NCBI GenBank assembly: GCA_028042835.1
Contig: JAOFOL010000003.1
Location: forward strand, 1-64,000
DNA: 64,000 nt
Direction: 5' to 3'
From: Opitutales bacterium
GTDB lineage: Bacteria; Verrucomicrobiota; Verrucomicrobiia; Opitutales; Seribacteraceae
A program made the position numbers and the translations under genes. Shown here piece after piece: positions 48,930-63,849 of the stretch. The number at the start of each line of letters is the position of its first letter. The stretch's first letter is position 1. Below the pieces are notes generated by a model. That model did no database searches. It was not told where the DNA came from and saw nothing but the letters and a program-made list of their open reading frames with translations.

Positions 48930-50267
48930 ATTAAAAAAGACAAAAAATTTGAGAAAAAATTCTTCATTTCAGTAATAACAATTTTAACTTTTATTTTAAA
49001 TGGCAAATCACAAGATACTCTTGTGTCAGCTTTTTTTGGACTTGATAATGCACTACCAAGTTTAATGTGTGGTCAATTCGGAAGCCTGTTAGATGGTATG
49101 CCTGTTAATTTTAGATTCCCATTAAATTCATCCAGTTTATCGGGAACTGATTTTGAAGTTGTAGATAGCCTTGGAAATATACACATCCCAATGTGTGCTG
49201 TTTTAGCCCCAGCTAATGAAAACGGAGAAAATCGAACTGTGCTTCTGTTAGGTGAATTTGGTACCGCTGTTACCAATCCACCTGTTGAAGTCAGAGTTGT
49301 AGGGGATTTATTTACAATTGATACTTTATCTGGAGAGTCCGCTTGTTCAGAAATCATAAACCTGAACGGAACTACTAGCACGAATGTTATTCCGCTTGCT
49401 GATGGACCAAGTTTATTCTTTGCCCAAAGAATTGATGGCAATCTGAATGAATGTAATTCAGGAACACAAACGATTCAAGTTGCCTGGGATGGTGGTATTA
49501 CACCGTGTATAAGTGGTGATACAGAATCTGACTTGTTTCAATACTATATTGGTTATTCTGATAGTTCAGGAGTTCTAATCCCGCATGTACCTATTTCGAT
49601 AACCGATATTGATGACAACGACAACTTTCACCAACTTTGTTTTTCTACAAGTGATGAAATTGTTAAAATTTCAATGATGGCTAACACTGTCAAAGACCCA
49701 AACCACGATCCAAATTTATACAGCGAAATTTATGTTAGTTATTCATACTCACTATCCACTTCATCCTCTCCTTCTAATTCTGGTACCGTAAGTGGTGATG
49801 GTACTTACAACTCAGGCTCAACGATTTCTATCTCTGCAACTCCATCCAATGGCTATCAATTTAGCCATTGGTCTGGCGACACTTCGGGCTCCAGTAATCC
49901 GCTTTCGATTACCATCAATCAAGATACAAGCATCGTCGCAAACTTCTCTGTAACTGGTACGAATAATACTTCTGACAACAATAGTTGGTCGAGTGCTGTT
50001 AATCTTGGTAATGGTTGGAGATCTTTTTCTTGGTTTGGAAAATTTTTTGAAGTTTCTCAAAATTGGATCTATCATGTGAAAATGGGATGGCTCTACCGAT
50101 TTGGTGATGACCTTAATTTATTATGGTTTTACTCTCCTCAACACGGTTGGCTTTTCACTTCAAAATCGATTTTCCCCTACCTCTATGCTCATAATTCAAA
50201 ATCCTGGCTTTATTGGTCAGAAAGTAAGCTTTATATTTGGAATAATTCGCAATGGAATACGATTTAA
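48930..50267 (+). CDS. Secreted protein with InlB-type bacterial repeat and W/Y-rich C-terminal domain; start extended relative to track
   Basis: Frame extends upstream of GTG 49023 as (I)KKDKKFEKKFFISVITILTFILNGKSQDTLVSAFF-, a signal peptide with no ATG/GTG/TTG; GTVSGDGTYNSGSTISISATPSNGYQFSHWSGDTSG...ITINQDTSIVANFS repeat; C-terminal WIYHVKMGWLYRFGDDLNLLWFYSPQHGWLFTSKSIFPYLYAHNSKSWLYW. Confidence 0.65.
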   Translation: MKKDKKFEKKFFISVITILTFILNGKSQDTLVSAFFGLDNALPSLMCGQFGSLLDGMPVNFRFPLNSSSLSGTDFEVVDSLGNIHIPMCAVLAPANENGENRTVLLLGEFGTAVTNPPVEVRVVGDLFTIDTLSGESACSEIINLNGTTSTNVIPLADGPSLFFAQRIDGNLNECNSGTQTIQVAWDGGITPCISGDTESDLFQYYIGYSDSSGVLIPHVPISITDIDDNDNFHQLCFSTSDEIVKISMMANTVKDPNHDPNLYSEIYVSYSYSLSTSSSPSNSGTVSGDGTYNSGSTISISATPSNGYQFSHWSGDTSGSSNPLSITINQDTSIVANFSVTGTNNTSDNNSWSSAVNLGNGWRSFSWFGKFFEVSQNWIYHVKMGWLYRFGDDLNLLWFYSPQHGWLFTSKSIFPYLYAHNSKSWLYWSESKLYIWNNSQWNTI

Positions 50268-50276
50268 TGCATGTCA

Positions 50277-51551
50277 TTACTCGACCTCCAGAATTTCATT
50301 CCAATCAGTCGTGTAGCGGGGCGTGCGCATCTCCCGGCGCATCCGCCATTGTTTTCCAATCCCCTGCCCTCCCCAAAAAGCACCTCCTGCTCCATAGCGA
50401 CTGGCGGCTTCCTCCACCGCATTAACAAATTCACTACGACGGGAACTGCCATGTTCTTCAAATAATAACCCCTGTCGAAAAGAAGAGGATACTAAATCTA
50501 AAAGAATAACCCCGGCCTTTTTGTAGGCATAACCGGGGCGGAACATACTCCGAAGTAAACGCTTCGCATTCTGAACAATCCGAATGGGATCATCAGTGGG
50601 CTCATCCAATGTCAATGTCCGGGAATTTGCATACTGAGGCTGATCTTCACGAAAACGGTTAGTCATGATAAAAACTTGCAATCCAGAAACCAGGGATCCC
50701 TCAGAACGAACCTTTCGGGTAGCCCGGATAGCATAATTGGCAACCGCTTCCTCCAGTTCCTCCAAGTCTATGACTGGTTTTCCAAACGAGCGGGAACAAC
50801 AGGTATTTTTACGGGGAGGAGCCACTTCCTCAAGTTCCAGGCACGAAACACCGGCAAGTTCGCGTTGTGTTCGCTCCAGGGTAACTCCCCCAATTGCCCG
50901 AATTGAGGCTGAGGGTACACGGGCGAAATCCCAGGCATTCAATACCCCAATCCTGCGTAACCGGACACTGAGGCGGCGACCGACACCCCAAACATCTTCA
51001 ATGGTAAGGCTTCGTAAGATCTTTTCATCACCACAATGAATCATACTGCACCCCGTTCCCTTTTTTTTCGCTAAACGATTGGCTGCTTTAGCCAAAGTTT
51101 TTGTCGACCCAAGGCCAATAGAAATTGGAATACCCGTCCATTTTTTGACCTGATCACGTATTCGAATACTTATATCCAAAGGATTCGTTACGCCTGTAAG
51201 ATCAAGAAAGGATTCATCAATCGAATACACTTCCAATTCCGGGGCAAAACGGGCAAGTACAGAAACCACCCGCGATGACATATCCCCATAAAGCTCATAA
51301 TTGGAGGAAAGCACCACCACTCCATTGCGTTCACAAAGATTTCGAATTTGGTGATACGGTGCTCCCATAGGAATCCCAATCGCCTTCGCTTCATTCGAGC
51401 GGGCCACTGCGCACCCGTCATTGTTGGATAATACAATTACCGGTCGTTTATCGAGGGACGGGCGAAAGACGCGTTCACAGGAAACATAAAAATTATTACA
51501 GTCAGCTAAAGCAATCAAAGAGAATGGACTACATTGGTAACCACTCCCCAT
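50277..51551 (-). CDS. umuC: Error-prone DNA polymerase V subunit UmuC (Y-family)
   Basis: [88 protein letters not shown]. Confidence 0.95.
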
Positions 51552-52033
51552 AAATGGGTATCATCCTGCTCTTGAAAATCGATGGGGGGATAGTCGGGGT
51601 TTTCAGGCATAAGCCAGGTTCTGCCCTTGGATCGACGGAACCGCTTGACTGTAAGCTCTCCATTAATCGAGACGATAACGACCTTGCCATTGATCGCTTC
51701 AAGACTACGGTCCACCACCAATAAATCGCCATCATGGATACCGGCTCCAATCATCGAGTCTCCACGGGCCCGCACGAAAAAAGTAGCAGTGGGTTCACGA
51801 ACGAGATGAGTATTTAAATCCAAGACCCCTTCCGCATAATCATCTGCTGGCGAGGGGAAACCGGCGGGCACTGCGTGACCGTAAATAGGCACAGCATCTT
51901 CTCGTTCCCTCACAAAACGGAGTACTCGATCAATCTTACTGACAGGTATACGCACAGGTTTGGTGGGTTCACCATAATAATTGGTTCCTTGAGGGCGCCC
52001 TGCACCGGTTCTTTTTCCTCCACGAGTCGTCAT
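51515..52033 (-). CDS. umuD: UmuD-like S24 autoprotease with N-terminal basic extension
   Basis: [12 protein letters not shown] (Ala-Gly cleavage site), [23 protein letters not shown] (Ser), [12 protein letters not shown] (Lys); N-terminal [17 protein letters not shown]. Confidence 0.93.
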
Positions 52034-52124: not shown

Positions 52125-52838
52125 GTGGAACTTATAAGCAAATCAAATTCTATCAATCATCTAATCATTGGCGCATCCCGTGGAATCGGGCGGGCACTGG
52201 TGGATATATCAATAGAAGCAGGTAATCAAGTGTACGCTCTTTCCAGGAGTGCCCCCGAAAATGAAAGGGAAGGATGCAAATGGATCACTGCCGATGCGAC
52301 GCAGCCAGATACCTACATGGATTCCCTTCCTGAAAAAATCAACGCTCTCACATTTTGCCCTGGCAAAGTAATCCTTGGCCCAATCAAGCGACTGAAAGCT
52401 GAACAGATGTTGCAGGCTTATCAAACCAGCGTGTTGGATGCATTTACAGTTATACAATCTTTATTGCCCAGACTGGAAGGTTCCATCGCATTACTTTCAT
52501 CGGTAGCAGCCAGAACCGGGCTCCCCAATCATTGTGCGATTTCTGCAGCCAAGTCGGCTTTGGAAGGCTTTGCTATTGCCTTGGCAGCTGATTTAGCACC
52601 GAAAGTTAGGGTAAATGTAGTGGCCCCCACTCTTACCCCCACAGAAATGGGTACCGCGATGGTGGGCGGAGAAAAAATGCTCCCCATGATCGAGCAGAGA
52701 CATCCATTAAAGAGAATTCCTGCAGTTACTGAGATTGCATCCACCCTCGCCTTTCTCCATTCAGCAGCGGCCACATCCATAACCGGACAGGTATTGAAAG
52801 TGGATGGTGGTCTTTCACAGTTACGATTGAATTCATGA
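52125..52838 (+). CDS. SDR family oxidoreductase
   Basis: LIIGASRGIGRALVDISIEAGNQVYALSRS; ISAAKSALEGFAIALAADLAPKVRVNVVAP; ATG overlap with the photolyase. Confidence 0.9.
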   Translation: MELISKSNSINHLIIGASRGIGRALVDISIEAGNQVYALSRSAPENEREGCKWITADATQPDTYMDSLPEKINALTFCPGKVILGPIKRLKAEQMLQAYQTSVLDAFTVIQSLLPRLEGSIALLSSVAARTGLPNHCAISAAKSALEGFAIALAADLAPKVRVNVVAPTLTPTEMGTAMVGGEKMLPMIEQRHPLKRIPAVTEIASTLAFLHSAAATSITGQVLKVDGGLSQLRLNS

Positions 52839-54286
52839 TTGCGGAAGTTTCCTCCTCCGCTCCCGTTCTTGTCTGGTTTAGAAAAGATTTGCGCTTACGG
52901 GATAATCCATCCCTAAACGCCGCTCTTACTGCTAAGCGTAAGATCATCCCTGTATATATATGGGATGAGGAAGAAGGCGGGCAATGGAGCCCCGGAGCAG
53001 CGGCTCGCTGGTGGCTACACCATGCGTTGGAAAGCCTGGGGAAAGAAATCAGTAATTTAGGGGGTGAGCTTATTCTAGCCAAAGGAAAGGCAGCCGATTT
53101 AATTTCTCAAATCGCTCAAGATCATGGAGCAGATCAAGTTCTTTACGGCAGGGCTTACGACCCTCCCGGATTGGCCACACAGGAAAAAGTGGAAGAGACT
53201 CTTGATCAAGCCGGGATCGATACAGCCTCTTTTAACGCCTCCCTTTTGCAGGAGCCATGGGAAACCAAAAATGGATCAGGAAAACCCTTCCAAGTATTTA
53301 CTCCTTATTGGCGGAAATCCCGTTCAATTATTTACCGTGAACCGTCTGAATACGAGATAACAGAGCTGTCGTTTCATAATTCGCCTACTTCTAGAAATTC
53401 ACTTAATCAACTTGATCTACTCCCGGATCACTCCTGGCATGAAAAGCTTACGGAACACTGGGTAGTCACAGAATCCGCAGCCCATGAGCAACTTGAAAGA
53501 ACGGTCAACGAAGTAACTCATTCCTATGCTACACGCAGGAATCATCCATCTGTCAATGGCACCTCCCGCCTGTCACCCTACCTTGCCTGGGGTTTAATTA
53601 GTCCCCGACAAATCTGCCAGAATGTCCTTCAGGCTGAAAACGAAGGAAGCCACCGTGGAGAGAACAAATTTCTGGTCGAAATCGGATGGCGTGAATTTTC
53701 CTACCACCTACTCTATCACTTCCCATCGATTCCAGACCAACCTCTACGGCCCAAATACGCGGCATTTCCTTGGCTCGATGACAAGGAAAACCTCAAACGC
53801 TGGCAATTTGGAAACACGGGCTACCCTATGGTCGATGCCGGTATGAGGCAACTCTATGAAACCGGTTGGATGCATAACCGGGTGCGCATGGTGGTGGCAT
53901 CGTTCTTAGTCAAACATCTGCTTATTTCTTGGACGGAGGGTGCCCGATGGTTTTGGGATACTCTGGTCGATGCTGATCTGGCAAGTAATACTCAGGGATG
54001 GCAATGGGCTGCCGGTTGCGGGGCGGATGCGGCCCCCTATTTTAGAATTTTCAACCCAATCACCCAAGGGGAAAAATTCGATACCCGCGGACTTTATGCC
54101 AAACGCTGGATTCCATCTCTCGAAAAACTTCCATCCAAATGGATATTCCGTCCTTGGGAAGCCCCTGCTACCATACTCGAAGAAAATGGTGTAGATTTAG
54201 GAAGCAACTATCCGGAACCATGTGTTGACCACGCAGAAGGTCGAGCCCGTGCTCTCGCTGCCCTTGCCACCCTTAAGACACCGTAA
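52835..54286 (+). CDS. phrB: Deoxyribodipyrimidine photo-lyase, class I CPD type
   Basis: VLVWFRKDLRLRDNPSLNAAL; RLSPYLAWGLISPRQI; GYPMVDAGMRQLYETGWMHNRVRMVVASFLVKHLLISW; DADLASNTQGWQWAAGCG. Confidence 0.94.
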   Translation: MIAEVSSSAPVLVWFRKDLRLRDNPSLNAALTAKRKIIPVYIWDEEEGGQWSPGAAARWWLHHALESLGKEISNLGGELILAKGKAADLISQIAQDHGADQVLYGRAYDPPGLATQEKVEETLDQAGIDTASFNASLLQEPWETKNGSGKPFQVFTPYWRKSRSIIYREPSEYEITELSFHNSPTSRNSLNQLDLLPDHSWHEKLTEHWVVTESAAHEQLERTVNEVTHSYATRRNHPSVNGTSRLSPYLAWGLISPRQICQNVLQAENEGSHRGENKFLVEIGWREFSYHLLYHFPSIPDQPLRPKYAAFPWLDDKENLKRWQFGNTGYPMVDAGMRQLYETGWMHNRVRMVVASFLVKHLLISWTEGARWFWDTLVDADLASNTQGWQWAAGCGADAAPYFRIFNPITQGEKFDTRGLYAKRWIPSLEKLPSKWIFRPWEAPATILEENGVDLGSNYPEPCVDHAEGRARALAALATLKTP

Positions 54287-54333: not shown

Positions 54334-55920
54334 ATGAAAACCGCAGTCTTATGGTTTCGGAAATGTCTTCGTTTAGACGATAACCCATCCCTCGTTCAGG
54401 CATGTGAAGACAGCAATGTGGATTCCATTCTGCCAATTTTTATTTTGGACCCGGGAATTGTTGGTGAAGGCTTTGAAAAATATGGAAAAAACCGCTTACG
54501 ATTTTTACTTGAAAACCTTGAAGATCTTGATCAGCAATTACAGGCTAAAGTATCCAATCCTCTGCATATCTTTCATGGTTCCCCATCCAACGCAGTTGTC
54601 GGTTTACAAAATTATTTAAAAGACAGGATGTATTCCTTTCATTCTGAATACTGCTCTGAACCTCATGGAAGATCGATATCCCAAAGTATACAGGATACCC
54701 TTTCAATAGATAAAGATATACCCTGTCACTTTCACCCTGCTTCCCATACCATCCTGGATTTGGAAAAAACAATCTCTGTGGACGGATTTAAAAATCCAAA
54801 ATCGATGAAGGATATTCAGAAGATTTTTTCCTCAACATTCTCTATTGATCAGGATGGTTTTTTTCAGATTCCGGAGATTTCACCGGAACCAAAAGTTTTA
54901 AAACCGCCTCCGAGTGATTTTAATTTCCAATCCTGTGCCCAACTCTTCAAAGGAGACCTGCACACCTGTTCTTCCCTACGAATCAAATTTTCAAAACTTA
55001 AATTTTTAGATACGACTGATGAGAACTGCTATTTCAAAGGCGGAGAAAGCATAGCTCGGGAGCGCTTAAAAGAAAAAGTTTCCACCCGTCATGATTATGT
55101 AAACACATTCAAAAAACCAAAAACATCTTCAACGAACATACCCTCTAATCCCCGCGAACCGAGTACCACGGGTCTTTCTCCTTACATAACAATTGGTTCA
55201 TTATCAGTCCGCCGACTGTGGAAAGAAGTTGAAAAAGCAAATCGGACGGGTCCCCATAGTACCCCACCCGAATCCTTACACGGACAACTACTTTTCCGTG
55301 AAATGTTTTATCTCCTTTCGCGATCCGTAGAAAATTGGGATCAGGATCAGAACAATTCTATGTGTAAGGAAATCAAGTGGGGAGAACACGATGATATAAA
55401 GATGACTGCATGGGAAGATGGTAAGACTGGATTCCCGTTAATTGATGCCCTGATGAGACAGTTGAAATCCACCGGTTGGATGCACCATCTTGGCAGGCAT
55501 GCGGTTTCCTGTTTCCTCACCCGCGGACAACTTTGGCAGCATTGGAAAAGTGGGCGTGATATATTTGACCACAAACTACTCGACAGTGACTGGGCTTTAA
55601 ATAATGCGAATTGGCTTTGGCTATCTGGCGTGGCTCCATTTTCCATGCCCTATTTTCGTTTATATAATCCCTGTCCGGATGGAAAATCCAGCCTCAATGT
55701 AGATGCAGAAACCGCAGGTTTCATTAGGCACTGGGTCCCGGAATTAGAAAATTTTCCTGTCAAATATATCTACGAACCCCATCTTGCTCCCCTTGGTATT
55801 CAGGAATCGGCAGGATGTATAATTGGAAAAGATTATCCTCTACCCATAGTTAACCGTAAGGAAGTGGCCAAAGAAAACCTCGCCAGTTTCAAAACCAGTT
55901 TAGCCCAGCTATCTGCTTAG
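54334..55920 (+). CDS. Cryptochrome/photolyase family protein of animal CRY / (6-4)-photolyase type
   Basis: LWFRKCLRLDDNPSL; GKNRLRFLLENLEDLDQQL; PSTTGLSPYITIGSLSVR; GQLLFREMFY; GKTGFPLIDALMRQLKSTGWMHHLGRHAVSCFLTRGQLW; FPVKYIYEPHLAPLGIQESAGCIIGKDYPLPIVN. Confidence 0.85.
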   Translation: MKTAVLWFRKCLRLDDNPSLVQACEDSNVDSILPIFILDPGIVGEGFEKYGKNRLRFLLENLEDLDQQLQAKVSNPLHIFHGSPSNAVVGLQNYLKDRMYSFHSEYCSEPHGRSISQSIQDTLSIDKDIPCHFHPASHTILDLEKTISVDGFKNPKSMKDIQKIFSSTFSIDQDGFFQIPEISPEPKVLKPPPSDFNFQSCAQLFKGDLHTCSSLRIKFSKLKFLDTTDENCYFKGGESIARERLKEKVSTRHDYVNTFKKPKTSSTNIPSNPREPSTTGLSPYITIGSLSVRRLWKEVEKANRTGPHSTPPESLHGQLLFREMFYLLSRSVENWDQDQNNSMCKEIKWGEHDDIKMTAWEDGKTGFPLIDALMRQLKSTGWMHHLGRHAVSCFLTRGQLWQHWKSGRDIFDHKLLDSDWALNNANWLWLSGVAPFSMPYFRLYNPCPDGKSSLNVDAETAGFIRHWVPELENFPVKYIYEPHLAPLGIQESAGCIIGKDYPLPIVNRKEVAKENLASFKTSLAQLSA

Positions 55921-57575
55921 AAAAGAAGGAGGTTCCCTGCGGAGTCAATTTTAGTTCCGTCACCTAGTTTCCCTTTCTCATTCATTCCGGCAAATCCCCG
56001 AATGGTAGAAAGATGATCCGCGTCCTCGATTTTTTTATCATTTCGCCAGCGGTGAATTCTAGGAAAGCGTAATGCAACTCCTGATTTGTGCCGACCAGAA
56101 GCCTGTACTCCCTCAAATGCAATTTCAAAAACAAGTTTTGGTTTTACACTGCGGACAGGACCAAATTTTCCGGTTATATTTTTCCTTACGAACTTATCAA
56201 CCTTTTCAATTTCTTCATTGGTCAAACCGGAATAAGCTTTTGCCACAGTGACCAATTCTCCGGATTCATTCCATACAGCCAAGGAATAATCCGAATATAA
56301 ATTGGCTCTTTTTCCGTGGCCAAGCTGGGCACTCACTACCACCATATCTGCCAAAAACGGATCTACTTTCCACTTATACCAAGCTCCCTTAATTCGCCCG
56401 CTTTCATACTTTGAATTCTTTCTCTTAAGCATAAAACCCTCCACTCCACGCTCGCGTGACTCCTCCCTGCGTTTTCCCAAATCACTCCAGGTTTTTTCAT
56501 TCACTTCCGGGGATATTCTCAGTGGCAAATGTTCCGGTAATCCCTGCATTAAAAATTCCAACTTCGCTCTTCTCTCCAGCATGGAGATTGATCTTAGATC
56601 CTCTCCATTCATTCGGAGTAAATCATAAGCTTGAAAACAAACGGGTTCTTTTTTCTGAATAGTGGAGCTAGGATTTTTTCGCCCCAACCTTTTTTGTAAC
56701 CGCGAAAAAGAACGGAGACCTTCCCTTCCCCAGGCTAAAATTTCTCCATCCAGACATGTCCCCGCCGGAAGATAAGGAATGCATTCCAGTAATTCAGGGA
56801 ACGATTCAGCAATTGACTCTTCTCCTCTCGACCAAAGCATCCCACCGCCGGCAGTCGTAGTCAATAGTTGGGCCCGTATGCCATCCCATTTCCATTCGAC
56901 CTGCCAGTCAACCACTTCCCCCAGAGTCCCGGGATCTTCCTGTAAGGGAGAAGCCAGACAAAAAGGAAAAGGTTTCCCCCTGCCCTCATTCTCACCAACA
57001 GGGTTGAGGATTTCCTGCATCGTTAAATCATCGCAAGTCCAATTCCCTGCAATCCTCTGAGAAATTACTGCGGGTTCTACATTTCCAACCCTTGCGAGAG
57101 CCTTACATAAATTACCTTTGGACACTCCCATTCGGAAACCACCTGTAAGTAATTTATGAAAAGGAAGCATTTCATCCGCAGAAAGATGATCCCAGGTTCT
57201 CTCAAGTAATACTTTTCGTTCTTGCGTATCTTGACCTCGCAGGGGAAGTAAATATTTTCGAATTGTATCATTTAGTCCCAGGTTCGACTTTTTTGATTTG
57301 GAACCGGCAAGTAGAGAAATCGTTTCGGCGAGGTCTCCTACCCTGTCATGACATTCTTCGATTAACCAAACAGGCAAGTTTGCACGCGCGGCGATAAAGT
57401 TTCGCAGTTCACCAGTTTTAACTGCACCTTTTATTCGATTGCCCGATAAAAACCAGCATACCCAAATGGAGTCCTCTCCGGGTGCATCTTTAAAATATTG
57501 GACCAGACGATCCAGACGATCATTTGTTTTGGTCAATGAATCGAGATCATGAAAAAGAGCCGCAAATTCTCTCAT
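55917..57575 (-). CDS. ATP-dependent DNA ligase (ligase/exonuclease-cluster type)
   Basis: WKWDGIRAQLL (KxDG), DGEILAW, GFMLKRKNSKYESGRIKGAWYKWKVD; MREFAALF start gives an ATGA overlap with the upstream exonuclease (track start 57620). Confidence 0.93.
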   Translation of the reverse strand: MREFAALFHDLDSLTKTNDRLDRLVQYFKDAPGEDSIWVCWFLSGNRIKGAVKTGELRNFIAARANLPVWLIEECHDRVGDLAETISLLAGSKSKKSNLGLNDTIRKYLLPLRGQDTQERKVLLERTWDHLSADEMLPFHKLLTGGFRMGVSKGNLCKALARVGNVEPAVISQRIAGNWTCDDLTMQEILNPVGENEGRGKPFPFCLASPLQEDPGTLGEVVDWQVEWKWDGIRAQLLTTTAGGGMLWSRGEESIAESFPELLECIPYLPAGTCLDGEILAWGREGLRSFSRLQKRLGRKNPSSTIQKKEPVCFQAYDLLRMNGEDLRSISMLERRAKLEFLMQGLPEHLPLRISPEVNEKTWSDLGKRREESRERGVEGFMLKRKNSKYESGRIKGAWYKWKVDPFLADMVVVSAQLGHGKRANLYSDYSLAVWNESGELVTVAKAYSGLTNEEIEKVDKFVRKNITGKFGPVRSVKPKLVFEIAFEGVQASGRHKSGVALRFPRIHRWRNDKKIEDADHLSTIRGFAGMNEKGKLGDGTKIDSAGNLLLF

Positions 57576-58570
57576 TCCTCCTCCTCTCCACGAATACTTG
57601 CCCCGGACAAAATCGAACAATTCATACCCTGCTCTCCCAAATATCGAGTCAACGCATCCCCATTGCCATGAGTTACTTTAATCTCCTCGGCTCCAGTTCC
57701 CTTGATTACATCAATCAGTCCATTCCAATCGGCATGATCAGAAAGAATAAACCCACGATCCAAGTTCCGCCTTCTACGGGCTCCCCGTATCGCCATCCAT
57801 CCTGAAGCAAAACCTTTTCGAGCACTTCGAAACTTTCGGGTCCAGGTGGAATCTTCCACTGCCGGAGGTGCAATAATTATCGATCCATTAAAATCATATT
57901 CTTTACCCCGTTCGATTTTCATAACCTGAGGTAGTTTGATTCCTGCCTGCTCATAGTGCTCTAAAAAAGGATAAACCGCACTGTGTACATAAATGGATCC
58001 GATTTCTTTTCGTAAGCCTGCCAAAACCCTCTGTGCTTTTCCCAAAGAATAAGAAAATAAAAGGGAAGGTTTATCATCCTGCTTATTTTCAAGCCACCAT
58101 TCATTGATTTGTTGATGAATCTTTTCTTCAGGTAACCATCGATAAACGGGCAGCCCAAAAGTACATTCCGTTATAAACCCATTACATTTTAGTAGTTCAA
58201 AAGGCTCACAAGTCTGATCCTCCTGTGGTTTATAGTCGCCACTTACAACCCATACCCGACCATTTACTTCCACCCGAATTTGAGCAGAACCTAAAATATG
58301 ACCAGCGGGATGAAAAGATACCAAAGAATTTCCAATCTTAATTTTTTCCCCAAAAGGCAGACTTTCCACGACCGCATCTTTTCCAATACGAATTTTCAGC
58401 AGGCTCTTGCAGGTATCAGAGCAAAGATATGAGTTATGCCCGGGCCGGCCGTGATCGCTATGTGCATGAGTAATCAATGCCCGATCCACCTTTCCTCTCG
58501 GATCTATGTAAAAATCACCAGCAGGACAGAATATTCCTTCTCGCCTCAGCTCTAAAACTTCATTTTTCAA
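57572..58570 (-). CDS. Ligase-associated DNA exonuclease (metallo-beta-lactamase fold)
   Basis: ALITHAHSDHGRPGHNSYLCSDTCKSLLK; SFHPAGHILGSAQIRVE; VVSGDYKPQEDQTCEPFE; LSDHADWNGL. Confidence 0.92.
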   Translation of the reverse strand: MKNEVLELRREGIFCPAGDFYIDPRGKVDRALITHAHSDHGRPGHNSYLCSDTCKSLLKIRIGKDAVVESLPFGEKIKIGNSLVSFHPAGHILGSAQIRVEVNGRVWVVSGDYKPQEDQTCEPFELLKCNGFITECTFGLPVYRWLPEEKIHQQINEWWLENKQDDKPSLLFSYSLGKAQRVLAGLRKEIGSIYVHSAVYPFLEHYEQAGIKLPQVMKIERGKEYDFNGSIIIAPPAVEDSTWTRKFRSARKGFASGWMAIRGARRRRNLDRGFILSDHADWNGLIDVIKGTGAEEIKVTHGNGDALTRYLGEQGMNCSILSGASIRGEEEE

Positions 58571-58673: not shown

Positions 58674-59657
58674 GTGATCTTTAAAATACAACCCCTCGTT
58701 TTATTTACTGTTATGACCAATCTTAATTCATCTTCTTCTACTGCAGGAAACAATTTAGATCCCATTGGTAGATTCATTTCTGATCGTTCACGCATGGCAC
58801 CACCTACTAAGGAAGAGTGTGATGATTTATTCATCAAAATGTCAGAGGGTTCTGACGAAGCAAGAAAAGAACTCATTGAAAGACATGTCCGTCTAGTTGC
58901 TTCCATTGCACTTAAATTTCGACAAACTTGTGTCCCAATGGAAGACATTATGGCAGAAGGCATTCATGGCTTAGTTGTGGCGATGGATAAGTTTGATCAC
59001 ACCCGTGGAATCAAACTTAGCACTTACGCCGCATGGTGGATTCGTCAGCGTATCCAGCGTCTGATTGGTAAAATGTCAAGTGCTGTCGCTGTTCCCCATG
59101 ATGTTTCACAGGGAAAGAGGAAAGAAAACCTTGTCCGGACACAACTCCAAGTGGATCTTGGACGTAATCCTTCAGAAAATGAAGTTAATGATGTGCTTGG
59201 CAAAGATAGAAATCTTTCCAACCGTGTAAAATTTGCCCCTGGTAGCACTCTCTCTCTCGATGAACCATTGGGTGAAGATTCCAACCAAACTCTTGCCGAT
59301 ATGATGTCGGCTGAGGAAGAAGTAAAAAATTCCTACCGTGAAGACGGTTCACTTTCTGATGATATGTCAGTTGCCCTAAGCTTTTTGGGACAGCGTGAAA
59401 GAAAAGTTTTAGCTATGAGGTTTGGAATTGGACAGGATGATTCTATGAAACTGGATGAGATTGCCGATGTTCTTAATGTTTCCGGAGAAAGAGTCAGACA
59501 ATTAGAAGCACTTGGACTCAGGAAGTTAAGAGCAGTTCTCATGCAGAGTGGAAAACTTGACTTTAGACAACTAGATAAGCTTGTGGGAAAAGATTTACGT
59601 GGTAAAACCAAAATGAGTCCCCTTGAATTATCACTCATTGCGGACACTGCCGCGTAA
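58674..59657 (+). CDS. Sigma-70 family (group 2-like) RNA polymerase sigma factor
   Basis: ELIERHVRLVASIALKFRQTCVPMEDIMAEGIHGLVVAMDKFDHTRGIKLSTYAAWWIRQRIQRLI; ALSFLGQRERKVLAMRFGIGQDDSMKLDEIADVLNVSGERVRQLEALGLRKLR. Start likely ATG 58713. Confidence 0.93.
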   Translation: MIFKIQPLVLFTVMTNLNSSSSTAGNNLDPIGRFISDRSRMAPPTKEECDDLFIKMSEGSDEARKELIERHVRLVASIALKFRQTCVPMEDIMAEGIHGLVVAMDKFDHTRGIKLSTYAAWWIRQRIQRLIGKMSSAVAVPHDVSQGKRKENLVRTQLQVDLGRNPSENEVNDVLGKDRNLSNRVKFAPGSTLSLDEPLGEDSNQTLADMMSAEEEVKNSYREDGSLSDDMSVALSFLGQRERKVLAMRFGIGQDDSMKLDEIADVLNVSGERVRQLEALGLRKLRAVLMQSGKLDFRQLDKLVGKDLRGKTKMSPLELSLIADTAA

Positions 59658-60572
59658 ATGTCATTTTCTATATCTAAGTGGGTTTGCCCACCTCCTGAGA
59701 CATTCTCAGAGCCTGCCACTTCGGGTGCAAAAGTGGAGTGGTTTCGTTGTGTTCCTTATATTATCATTCACGGATTGGTTCTACTGGCCTTTTTTCATCC
59801 GTTTGTATGGCCCTGTTTGATTCTTTGCCTTGCATCATACTCAATCAGGATGTTTGCGATCACTGCCTTCTATCATCGATATTTCTCTCATCGGGCATTC
59901 AAAACAAGTCGTGCTTTCCAATTTATCGGCGGCTTTATCGGATGTGCTTCCGCACAAAGGGGTCCCTTGTGGTGGGCGGCTCATCACCGCCGTCATCACC
60001 GCCATTCAGACACGGACAAAGACATGCACTCACCCAAAACAAATAGTTTGTTTTGGAGTCACACCCTTTGGTTTATGACAGATTATGCAGTCCCCACATT
60101 TTTAAAAGAAATACCAGACTGGGTCAAATTTCCGGAACTTCGTTTCATAAATCGTTATGATTGGATTCCTGTCGTTATTTGGGGTGGTTTTTCCTATCTT
60201 CTCGGAGAATGGGCATGGTTTAGCACAGTTACCGGGATGACCGGAATGATGACTTTTATCTGGGGATTTATAGTTCCCACTATCATTTTGTATCACGCTA
60301 CATTCGCGGTCAATTCCCTCACACATCTTTGGGGTAAAAAACGCTTCGATACCGGGGATGAAAGCAGGAACAATTCTTGGGTTGCCCTATTTACTTTCGG
60401 CGAAGGTTGGCACAACAATCATCATTTTTTTCCGGGATCTGCCCGACAGGGATTTTTTAGGGGTGAACTAGATATCACATATATCTGTCTCCGTTTACTT
60501 TCAATTTTCGGTTTAGTCCGTGATCTTAGACCAGTCCCTGATTGGGTTAAAAAGAAGGCTTTAGACCAATAG
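59658..60572 (+). CDS. Acyl-CoA/fatty-acid desaturase
   Basis: His boxes HRYFSHRAF, AAHHRRHHRHSD, GEGWHNNHHFF. Confidence 0.93.
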   Translation: MSFSISKWVCPPPETFSEPATSGAKVEWFRCVPYIIIHGLVLLAFFHPFVWPCLILCLASYSIRMFAITAFYHRYFSHRAFKTSRAFQFIGGFIGCASAQRGPLWWAAHHRRHHRHSDTDKDMHSPKTNSLFWSHTLWFMTDYAVPTFLKEIPDWVKFPELRFINRYDWIPVVIWGGFSYLLGEWAWFSTVTGMTGMMTFIWGFIVPTIILYHATFAVNSLTHLWGKKRFDTGDESRNNSWVALFTFGEGWHNNHHFFPGSARQGFFRGELDITYICLRLLSIFGLVRDLRPVPDWVKKKALDQ

Positions 60573-60588
60573 CCTATCCATCCTCAGG

Positions 60589-61824
60589 ATGAGAATAGGA
60601 ATTGTAGGGTCCGGAATTTCCGGACTTATTTGTGCTTATTTATTACAGAAAAATCATCATGTCTCACTTTTTGAAGCAGACTCGAAACCCGGTGGACATG
60701 TCAATACGGTTACCACAAAAGGGAAAACAGGAACCTTTCAGGTAGATACAGGGTTTATAGTATTCAATCAGGAAAACTACCCCAATTTCGTTCGACTACT
60801 TGATAAGTTAGACGTCGCATCTCAGAAAACCCGCATGGGATTCTCTGTAAAATCTGACACTACGGGTATCGAATATAATGGAGAATCACTTACCGGTCTA
60901 TTTGGACACCTACGAAACATAACCAACCCCGGTCACTGGGGCATGGTCCTAGACATTTTAAAGTTTCATAAATTAGCAGATACTCTACCAGATCCGCAGG
61001 AAACAGTAGATCAATTCATTAACCGAACGGGACTGGGAAAAAGATTTCGCGATGCATTCCTACTTCCGTTGGGTTCCGCACTTTGGTCATGCCCTATCGA
61101 AAGATTTGGACAGTTCCCCATGGAATTTGTTACGGATTTCTTATCCAACCATCAAATGCTCCAGGCAAATAACCGACCCATATGGAGGGTCCTCGAAGGT
61201 GGGTCAAACACTTATGTAAAAGAAATCATCAAACCGCTGGGGGATCGTTTAAAACTGAATTCCCCAGTCAAAGAAGTATCCCGTAACGGTGACGCAGTTA
61301 CAATTTCATTTCCCGATGGTACATCTCAGCATTTCGACGAAGTCATTTTAGCATGCCATGCCGATCAATCCCTTCGAATGCTCAGTAAACCACAAATAGA
61401 AGAGACCAGCCTGCTCTCTTCTTTTCCTTACGAAGATAATCTCGTAACCCTGCATTCTGATGACTCCATACTTCCTCGCCGAAAATCGGCACGGGCCAGT
61501 TGGAATGCCTACCTGCCAAAAGGTAGAAATGAGCAGGCACTGGTCAGTTACGATATGAATATCCTCCAAAGTCTTCCCACCCCCGAGCCATTTTGCGTAA
61601 CCCTCAACCAGGAGAATCAGATTGATCCGAGTATGGAACACGCTAATTTTAAGTTTTCGCACCCCACCTATCATGCGGGTCGAAAAAAAGCCCAGCTCAG
61701 ACATGCTGAATTTATTCGTCGCCAAGGAATCTCTTTCTGCGGAGCCTACTGGGGCTTTGGATTTCATGAGGATGGACTGACCAGTGGCTTGCGGGTTTGC
61801 GAGGCATTCGGGGAAAAACTTTGA
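60589..61824 (+). CDS. FAD/NAD(P)-dependent oxidoreductase (amine-oxidase-like)
   Basis: RIGIVGSGISGLICAYLLQKNHHVSLFEADSKPGGHVNTV; FCGAYWGFGFHEDGLTSGLRVCE. Confidence 0.9.
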   Translation: MRIGIVGSGISGLICAYLLQKNHHVSLFEADSKPGGHVNTVTTKGKTGTFQVDTGFIVFNQENYPNFVRLLDKLDVASQKTRMGFSVKSDTTGIEYNGESLTGLFGHLRNITNPGHWGMVLDILKFHKLADTLPDPQETVDQFINRTGLGKRFRDAFLLPLGSALWSCPIERFGQFPMEFVTDFLSNHQMLQANNRPIWRVLEGGSNTYVKEIIKPLGDRLKLNSPVKEVSRNGDAVTISFPDGTSQHFDEVILACHADQSLRMLSKPQIEETSLLSSFPYEDNLVTLHSDDSILPRRKSARASWNAYLPKGRNEQALVSYDMNILQSLPTPEPFCVTLNQENQIDPSMEHANFKFSHPTYHAGRKKAQLRHAEFIRRQGISFCGAYWGFGFHEDGLTSGLRVCEAFGEKL

Positions 61825-62588
61825 TGGATAGTTCGCTTTATTTCGGCAAAGTCAGCCACCATCGAAAGTCTCCCAAGATCCATAACCTAGAATACAAAGT
61901 CTTCATGGCTCATCTTTTTTTGGATGAACTTCCCATGGTTTTTAAAAACCGATTATTTTGGGCAGTCAATCGTCCGAATTTATGCAGTTTTCAAAGATCC
62001 GATTATCATAGACCTGAAATAAATTCACTTGATGAAGCTATCAGGGAAACGATGAGTGAGCAACTTTCCGAGGACATAAAAGGTCGGATTTCTATTCTTA
62101 CTCATTTACGAACATTCGGATATTGCTTCAATCCAGTCACTTTTTACTACCTTTGGTCTGACGACCTGACGACCCCATTGGTCGTAATGACCGAAATAAC
62201 CAATACCCCCTGGGGCGAACGCTATGTTAAATGTTTCCGGTGGGCTGAATCAGAAAAAAATTCCAGATCTGCTCATGAGTTTCGAAAAGAATTTCATGTT
62301 TCTCCGTTTATTGGAATGGATGTGGAATATGACTGGAGATTTCAAACCCCCAAAGAAAAAAACCATATCGATATGTTTCTTCGACAGAACGGTAAGCTCT
62401 TCTTTTCTGCACACCTACATTTAAAACAAAGAATTATAAATTCTGGAAATCTGGCCTGGGCTCTTCTTCGTTTTCCATTCATGACTATTAAAGTAACTGC
62501 GGCCATTTATTGGAATGCACTTTTACTTCGCCTTAAAGGTTGTCCTTTTTATTCTCATCCCGAGCAATCGAACGTAAAACATGACTAA
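61797..62588 (+). CDS. DUF1365 domain protein
   Basis: LYFGKVSHHRKSPKIHNLEYKVFMAHLFLDELP; RISILTHLRTFGYCFNPVTFYYLW. Confidence 0.9.
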   Translation: MRGIRGKTLMDSSLYFGKVSHHRKSPKIHNLEYKVFMAHLFLDELPMVFKNRLFWAVNRPNLCSFQRSDYHRPEINSLDEAIRETMSEQLSEDIKGRISILTHLRTFGYCFNPVTFYYLWSDDLTTPLVVMTEITNTPWGERYVKCFRWAESEKNSRSAHEFRKEFHVSPFIGMDVEYDWRFQTPKEKNHIDMFLRQNGKLFFSAHLHLKQRIINSGNLAWALLRFPFMTIKVTAAIYWNALLLRLKGCPFYSHPEQSNVKHD

Positions 62589-63849
62589 TCAGGAACGAGC
62601 AACAACAGAAAGAGATTCACCCCGGGATATTCTAAAAGCTGGATTTTTTGAGAAAATTTTATCTCACCAGCTTAAATTATCCACGACTGGTATACTCGAT
62701 CTCAATAGCCCGTCCGGAAAAAAAAGATTTGGTAATCCAGATAACGGAGGACTCGAAGCAGATCTCCAAGTTCACAAAGGAGAATTTTTTCGAAAAGCCT
62801 GCCTCGGCGGTTCTCTTGGGGTGGCTGACAGTTATTCCAATGGAGATTGGGATACGGCAGATTTAGTCTCTTTTTTTCGTTTTTTCCTCCAAAATCAAGA
62901 GGTAATGGATGGCATGGAAAGTGGCTGGGCCACCCTCCTCAACAAACTCGCCAGATGGGCCTACCTTATCGGGCAGAAAAACACCATTCAGGGAAGCCGC
63001 AAAAATATTTCACTGCATTACGATTTAGGCAACGACTTTTATGAATTAATGCTCGACCCGACTATGACCTACTCATGCGGGATTTTTGAATCAGAAAACT
63101 CGACTCTCGAAGAAGCATCACTTGCTAAATATGACCGAATTATTGATCAGCTTAAAATTGAACCCCACCATCATGTTTTGGAAATCGGATGTGGATGGGG
63201 GGGATTTGCCGAGAGACTTGCCCAACGGACGGATGCCCGACTCACCGCCACCACGATTTCCAGTGAACAGTTCAAATATGCAGAAAATCGAATAAATAAT
63301 CTTGGTGCATCTGATCGCATAACAATCGTCAAGCAGGACTATCGTAATCTTTCCGGAGTGTTCGATCGAGTCGTATCCATTGAAATGATCGAAGCGGTTG
63401 GGCATGAATATTTACCCACTTACTTTTCAAAAATTGCAGAACTTCTTTCCCAAAATGGTGCTGCTATCATTCAGGCTATCACCATGCCTGACCACCGGTA
63501 CTCTCAGTATCTTAAAGAAGTTGATTATATCCGGACTAGGGTATTCCCCGGAAGTAATGTACCCTCGGTATCGGCGATGGTCCAAGCCGTTGCCAAAAAG
63601 TCAGACCTACGGCCAACCAATATTTTTGACTTTGGTTATCATTATGCCAGAACCCTCAGGGAATGGCGCCTTCGCTTCTTACAAAACGAAGATAAAATTG
63701 CCAGGCTTGGATATGATCAGTCATTTCGACGGGCTTGGCTTTACTATCTTTGTTACTGTGAGGCCGGGTTTGAAGAAGGCTACACCGGAGACGTCCACCT
63801 TCTACTGACCAAGCCTGAATCAAAGTTATCCAAAGGATTCCCCGAATGA
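62581..63849 (+). CDS. cfa: Cyclopropane-fatty-acyl-phospholipid synthase family protein
   Basis: NISLHYDLGNDFYELMLDPTMTYSCGIFE; HHVLEIGCGWGGFAERLAQRTDARLTATTISSEQFKYAENRI; ALREWRLRF-like ARTLREWRLRF. Confidence 0.94.
   Translation: MTNQERATTERDSPRDILKAGFFEKILSHQLKLSTTGILDLNSPSGKKRFGNPDNGGLEADLQVHKGEFFRKACLGGSLGVADSYSNGDWDTADLVSFFRFFLQNQEVMDGMESGWATLLNKLARWAYLIGQKNTIQGSRKNISLHYDLGNDFYELMLDPTMTYSCGIFESENSTLEEASLAKYDRIIDQLKIEPHHHVLEIGCGWGGFAERLAQRTDARLTATTISSEQFKYAENRINNLGASDRITIVKQDYRNLSGVFDRVVSIEMIEAVGHEYLPTYFSKIAELLSQNGAAIIQAITMPDHRYSQYLKEVDYIRTRVFPGSNVPSVSAMVQAVAKKSDLRPTNIFDFGYHYARTLREWRLRFLQNEDKIARLGYDQSFRRAWLYYLCYCEAGFEEGYTGDVHLLLTKPESKLSKGFPE

Follow-up and report, generated by a model that had tools for sequence, protein, structure and literature searches.

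A gene of the eukaryotic (6-4) photolyase/animal cryptochrome subfamily in the slot of an Fe-S (6-4) photolyase in a marine genus of Verrucomicrobiota

In the window analyzed here, a 64,000-nucleotide stretch from an Opitutales bacterium, two photolyase-like genes stand side by side. The second of them, here called V64, raises the question of whether a bacterium can carry a photolyase of the animal cryptochrome/(6-4) type, and what such a protein does there. The V64 open reading frame starts with ATG, is intact over 528 codons and contains all motifs quoted in the original prediction; its matches to PF00875 (75.8 bits) and PF03441 (216 bits) were both far over cut-off. The neighboring gene had been proposed to encode a CPD photolyase on the basis of its GWMHNRVRM motif, and this was borne out: its top PDB match was the class III CPD photolyase PhrA of Agrobacterium, with which it also clustered in the tree. 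Given the 4 bp overlap between the short-chain dehydrogenase (SDR) gene and the CPD photolyase gene, and the 47 bp gap between the CPD photolyase stop and V64, the three genes resemble an operon (Table 1), and we presume that they are co-transcribed. Promoter and terminator scans returned nothing above chance level.

Table 1 Coordinates of the genes around V64 and of V64 codons matched to Drosophila (6-4) photolyase (Dm) residues.
Feature	Position in the window	Strand	Remarks
Short-chain dehydrogenase (SDR)	52125..52838	+	Overlaps the CPD photolyase start; first gene of the presumed operon
Class III-like CPD photolyase	52835..54286	+	Motif GWMHNRVRM; directly upstream of V64
V64, animal-type (6-4) photolyase-like gene	54334..55920	+	528 aa; without long C-terminal extension
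Lys261 = Dm(6-4) Lys246	55114..55116	+	Mostly other residues in CPD/DASH
Gln318 = Dm(6-4) Gln299	55285..55287	+	Glu in nearly all CPD and all DASH compared
Phe321 = Dm(6-4) Trp302	55294..55296	+	Phe in 12/12 V64
Trp349 = Dm Trp330, Trp tetrad	55378..55380	+	
His385 = Dm(6-4) His365, catalytic	55486..55488	+	From alignment; PDB titles of H365N/H369M mutants
His389 = Dm(6-4) His369	55498..55500	+	Met in CPD, Gln in DASH, Asn in Drosophila CRY
Trp401 = Dm Trp381, fourth tetrad Trp	55534..55536	+	Tyr in CraCRY, Phe in At(6-4)
Trp404 = Dm Trp384, Trp tetrad	55543..55545	+	
Asn423 = Dm Asn403, near FAD N5	55600..55602	+	Cys in insect CRY, Asp in plant CRY
Trp427 = Dm Trp407, FAD-proximal tetrad Trp	55612..55614	+	
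Tyr444 = Dm(6-4) Tyr423	55663..55665	+	Phe in nearly all CPD and in DASH
Cisplatin-damage-response ATP-dependent DNA ligase (TIGR04120)	55917..57620	-	Convergent to V64; lower border of the slot
Ligase-associated DNA damage response exonuclease (TIGR04122)	57572..58570	-	
Sigma-70-family factor, desaturase, FAD amine oxidase-like, DUF1365-type and CFA synthase-like block	58674..63849	+	Downstream of the slot; family-conserved

V64 is a member of the eukaryotic (6-4) photolyase/animal cryptochrome subfamily. When searched against PDB sequences, it scored 331 bits with CraCRY of Chlamydomonas, 327 bits with the Arabidopsis (6-4) photolyase and 314 bits with the Drosophila (6-4) photolyase; the best chain of a CPD class reached 146 bits. 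Identity to five eukaryotic references was 31–39%. In a maximum-likelihood tree of PDB references, bacterial CPD, DASH and unclassified members and 12 V64 proteins of the genus, the latter grouped with the five eukaryotic (6-4)/CRY sequences with a support of 100/99 and a long shared stem, and this support was still 100/99 after Drosophila CRY had been removed. The references (CraCRY, At(6-4), Dm(6-4) and others) were taken from PDB alignments; in the case of Drosophila CRY, Drosophila (6-4) photolyase and E. coli photolyase, query and PDB chain agreed completely over the part used. The initial description of V64 as animal CRY/(6-4)-like holds at the level of the subfamily, with V64 branching as sister to the eukaryotic (6-4)/CRY sequences sampled and not inside the animal clade. 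Its expected position outside the class I CPD and DASH-type clades was confirmed, with AU tests rejecting trees in which V64 was forced to group with class III CPD enzymes (p = 1.8e-41) or with DASH (p = 9.6e-5).

Other class identities were discarded as well. A class III CPD identity is rejected, as V64 reads MHHLxRH instead of MHNRxRM and the PhrA grouping was rejected. For CRY-DASH, the TIGR02765 score of 167.5 bits stayed below the 317-bit cut-off, in addition to the rejected grouping. As for an Fe-S PhrB identity, V64 matched only PF00875/PF03441, and PF04244 was not found in the genome.

An AlphaFold model of V64 based on a 56-sequence alignment had a pLDDT of 90.9 and a pTM of 0.93; an earlier model from 14 close homologues had reached a pLDDT of 62.6, and the deeper alignment fixed the quality. 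When the model was compared with PDB folds, CraCRY and (6-4) photolyases filled the first 20 places, and mouse and bird cryptochromes came next. The model was less certain at residues 437–460 (pLDDT 68–78). V64 stops at the final helix of the fold (residue 527 in the model) and lacks the C-terminal signaling tail of animal cryptochrome photoreceptors.

We then mapped the V64 residues onto the numbering of the Drosophila (6-4) photolyase and compared the 12 V64 proteins with each other. V64 H389 and W429 fit the class-diagnostic table of PMC7560933, with positions matched via the residue pattern across classes. The (6-4) lesion-pocket set, i.e., the two catalytic histidines together with Gln, Lys and Tyr, was complete in V64; the Drosophila pocket residues besides the two histidines follow the structure papers. 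H385, H389, Q318, K261, Y444, N423 and W349/401/404/427 were constant in 12/12 V64 proteins, a single unreadable X at 423 being the only exception. Among the CPD and DASH proteins of the comparison, Asn plus Met/Gln nearly always took the place of the His pair, with Glu for Gln, Phe for Tyr and a non-Trp residue at the fourth tetrad position. The FAD-binding residues checked, a loss of which would have spoken against the original prediction, were kept, including the Arg-Asp pair (R388, D417). V64 departs from (6-4) enzymes at the lesion-pocket Trp (Dm 302), where Trp was seen in all CPD, DASH and eukaryotic (6-4)/CRY proteins of the comparison, with Leu in AtCRY2; Trp at this position can be called typical, though not a proven hallmark. 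There are also two inserts in the lesion loops, of about 5 aa after Lys261 and about 5 aa around 437–457. The proposal that HHLxRH represents the (6-4) histidine pair was correct in that H385/H389 align with Dm H365/H369, but the motif alone is no proof of repair, because mouse CRY2 has HHLxRH as well. Vertebrate CRYs retain both histidines, yet do not repair DNA.

The strongest sign that V64 works as a (6-4) photolyase came from its place in the genome. The order of the block is conserved in the family: SDR, CPD photolyase, a slot, [ligase, exonuclease], sigma factor, desaturase, FAD oxidoreductase, a DUF1365-type gene and a CFA synthase-like gene. The slot directly downstream of the CPD photolyase contains V64 in the genus, and in sister genera the same slot holds an Fe-S PhrB-type (6-4) photolyase (9/15 genomes). 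In one of these (G394, L084:9624-11171), the slot gene encodes a 515-aa PF04244 protein with the Fe-S cysteines (C-x2-C...CP) and a GYGHHIQR motif, whose best PDB match was Agrobacterium PhrB, an Fe-S bacterial (6-4) photolyase, at 467 bits. PF04244 was present in 7/8 genomes of genus g200 and 2/5 of genus g201, each copy following the CPD gene immediately on its downstream side; it was absent from all 27 genomes of the V64 genus. The CPD gene followed by an adjacent PF04244 gene on the same strand was also found by comparison of coordinates in twelve more genomes (G085, G088, G091, G108, G140, G205, G261, G275, G293, G352, G361 and G382) from two other families of the order, which makes the CPD-PhrB pairing older than the family. 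The simplest reading is that V64 replaced an Fe-S PhrB-type (6-4) photolyase at one operon position in the genus, presumably in one event at its base; a stepwise loss followed by a gain, or a chance landing in the slot, would be less simple.

V64 was detected in 19 of the 27 genomes of this marine genus, as a full-length gene in 15 and cut by a contig end or split in four. The full-length copies were 57–80% identical within the genus, with pairwise dN/dS of 0.09–0.19, indicative of purifying selection; with such homologues in other genomes of the genus, V64 is not a chance reading frame. Most of the eight genomes without a copy also had no detected CPD photolyase or ended at contig edges. One of them (G412; C63, L085) has the CPD photolyase, but another ORF with a PQQ-repeat-like start in V64's place, which suggests that V64 was either lost in this member of the genus or never present in it. 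V64 was absent from the 15 genomes that represent the family's three other genera. The sensitive search covered two phyla, Verrucomicrobiota (~760 genomes) and Bacteroidota (346 genomes). No further V64 was found in 388 genomes across Verrucomicrobiota, nor in 373 genomes of the order, where four weaker matches (220–248 bits) were left unclassed, nor in the Bacteroidota as judged from the best 12 matches (~250 bits), which turned out to be DASH proteins and one CPD enzyme. IMG/VR viral contigs, phages and plasmids yielded other photolyase classes or nothing, and a scan of the whole collection for close relatives returned only the Verrucomicrobia MAG TMED44.

In this subfamily, FAD is reduced by light via the Trp tetrad, the lesion is flipped out, FADH- donates an electron, and the two histidines guide proton transfer, so that two pyrimidines are restored. 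Judged from sequence, modeled fold and gene position, V64 is probably a light-driven (6-4) photolyase of the eukaryotic subfamily that replaced the Fe-S PhrB-type enzyme in the slot. We infer FAD binding, photoreduction and (6-4) repair as follows: V64 would bind folded FAD, light would reduce it via the Trp tetrad, and the (6-4) photoproduct would be flipped into the FAD pocket, where FADH- would give an electron to the lesion with the assistance of His385/His389. The class III-like enzyme encoded one gene upstream would repair cyclobutane dimers, and in the marine genus V64 would have taken over the operon position of the sister genera's Fe-S PhrB-type (6-4) photolyase. An 8-HDF (FO) antenna occurs in several subfamily relatives; the FO synthase CofH was over cut-off in 0/27 genomes of the genus, which makes this antenna unlikely for V64 unless it is imported.

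CraCRY (6fn0/5zm0), which is also a (6-4) photolyase, was the best PDB match of V64 in both sequence and fold, with the same His pair, Gln, Lys, Tyr and FAD residues. The two proteins share 37.5% identity, and differ in the fourth tetrad residue (Tyr in CraCRY, Trp in V64), in Phe321 and in the loop inserts. Full-length CraCRY bears a C-terminal extension for which V64 has no counterpart. The Drosophila (6-4) photolyase (2wb2/3cvu) shares H365/H369, Q299, K246, Y423, N403 and W407/384/330/381 with V64, but is eukaryotic, 38% identical and has W302 in place of Phe. Among bacteria, the (6-4) photolyase homologues of Gloeobacter also belong to the eukaryotic (6-4)/animal CRY subfamily and have the Trp tetrad (PMC7560933, PMC9498864, PMC4564169). 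The subfamily was listed in bacteria for Gloeobacter violaceus only (Mei and Dvornyk, PMC4564169 Table 1), and the G. violaceus protein is reported to be 50–56% identical to eukaryotic enzymes and to lie near algae (Miles et al., PMC7560933, where two Gloeobacter species are discussed). In contrast, V64 reaches the above 31–39% and stands beside the eukaryotic clade, Gloeobacter being compared here by its published figures. The Fe-S bacterial (6-4) photolyases (PhrB/CryB, PF04244, 'prokaryotic 6-4') presumably act on the same lesion and occupy the same slot, but form a different subfamily and Pfam family with Fe-S cysteines. An operon of Synechococcus sp. PCC 7335 likewise combines two photolyases of different specificity, although its second gene, unlike V64, encodes a putatively bifunctional, class II-related enzyme of the PhrSph98 type (PMC9649867). 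What is new here is the swap of PhrB and V64 together with the Trp-to-Phe change in the lesion pocket.

The same features leave some room for other functions. V64 might be a blue-light photoreceptor, i.e., a bacterial cryptochrome that signals, e.g., to the nearby sigma factor rather than repairing DNA. Vertebrate CRYs of the same clade share the His pair and tetrad, a sigma-70-family gene lies within the conserved neighborhood, and Phe321 takes the place of the lesion-pocket Trp. We regard this as improbable, as V64 has no C-terminal signaling extension beyond the last helix, carries the N5-Asn of photolyases instead of Cys/Asp, is the presumed operon partner of a CPD photolyase in what is a (6-4) photolyase slot, and the sigma gene occurs in the same block also in genera without V64. 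The pocket change and the loop inserts could instead indicate a light-driven repair enzyme with shifted substrates (e.g., CPD plus (6-4), Dewar isomers or single strands), and Phe321 is indeed found in 12/12 V64 proteins and the inserts are lineage-specific. Such a shift seems quite improbable to us: Gln318, His389, Lys261 and Tyr444 agree with (6-4) enzymes, at positions where CPD/DASH proteins usually show Glu, Met/Gln, other residues and Phe, respectively, and the same genome already encodes both a CPD photolyase and a DASH protein. Eukaryotic DNA contaminating the assembly, for which nothing but the eukaryotic affinity of V64 speaks, is refuted by the synteny of V64 in many genomes; the gene is found at the same position there and in the named MAG NHCX01000054.1, is intron-free and lies inside a bacterial gene cluster. 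V64 is a real and conserved bacterial member of the subfamily, and most likely works as a (6-4) photolyase in the place of PhrB.

Its origin is a separate matter. We lean slightly towards a horizontal acquisition from a marine protist or alga followed by fast divergence, which would be compatible with (6-4) repair. V64 is confined to one genus in the genomes sampled, grouping with plant/algal forms was not firmly rejected (AU p = 0.069), and algal transfer was once proposed for the Gloeobacter precedent (PMC7560933). On the other hand, V64 fell outside the eukaryotic sequences, which were monophyletic in the full tree (97/99) and remained apart from V64 without the unclassified long-branched rows (100/100) and without Drosophila CRY (100/100 as a group, 99/98 in the printed tree). 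There was also no composition anomaly, the GC3 of 0.38 being within the range of the neighbors. The alternative, a bacterial lineage that diverged ahead of all eukaryotic (6-4) photolyases and animal cryptochromes and has persisted as V64, is considered rather unlikely; if true, V64 would be a bacterial sister lineage of the proteins ancestral to animal clock cryptochromes. Grouping V64 with Drosophila CRY was not firmly rejected (p = 0.135), and grouping with the Drosophila (6-4) photolyase alone was rejected (p = 0.013). These tests covered five eukaryotic reference sequences, so that a protist transfer and a bacterial stem lineage are both candidate origins.

As a more divergent branch found across a genus of marine Verrucomicrobiota, the V64 lineage could help to root the family, with a bearing on the origin of animal cryptochromes. 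The exchange of V64 and PhrB in one slot amounts to a natural experiment in organisms of sunlit sea water, in which distant subfamilies apparently share one role with or without an Fe-S cluster. With Phe321, the way in which (6-4) enzymes hold their substrate could readily be probed by mutation.

Several observations concern the surroundings of V64 and the rest of the genome. A umuC/umuD-like pair at 50277-52033, kept in most relatives examined, is divergent from the photolyase genes and puts UV damage tolerance alongside light repair. The convergent ligase (TIGR04120) and exonuclease (TIGR04122) pair is missing from the block in some genomes of the family (G405, G399 and G428) and seems to have been gained or lost as a module of its own. 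The set from sigma factor to CFA synthase-like gene resembles photo-oxidative stress gene sets of other bacteria. Elsewhere in the same genome, a DASH cryptochrome (TIGR02765, 473 bits) is encoded at G000:C45, ~49400-50700 (L005:1480-2766), and a 507-aa photolyase/cryptochrome paralogue with the motif GFLNFRMRAM at G000:C45, ~67350-68880 (L058:673-2193). Together with the CPD photolyase and V64, this makes at least four photolyase/cryptochrome genes in the genome. The 507-aa paralogue had no NCBIfam class over cut-off and formed a long branch with proteins from Bacteroidota (L070) and a Nostoc plasmid (L060).
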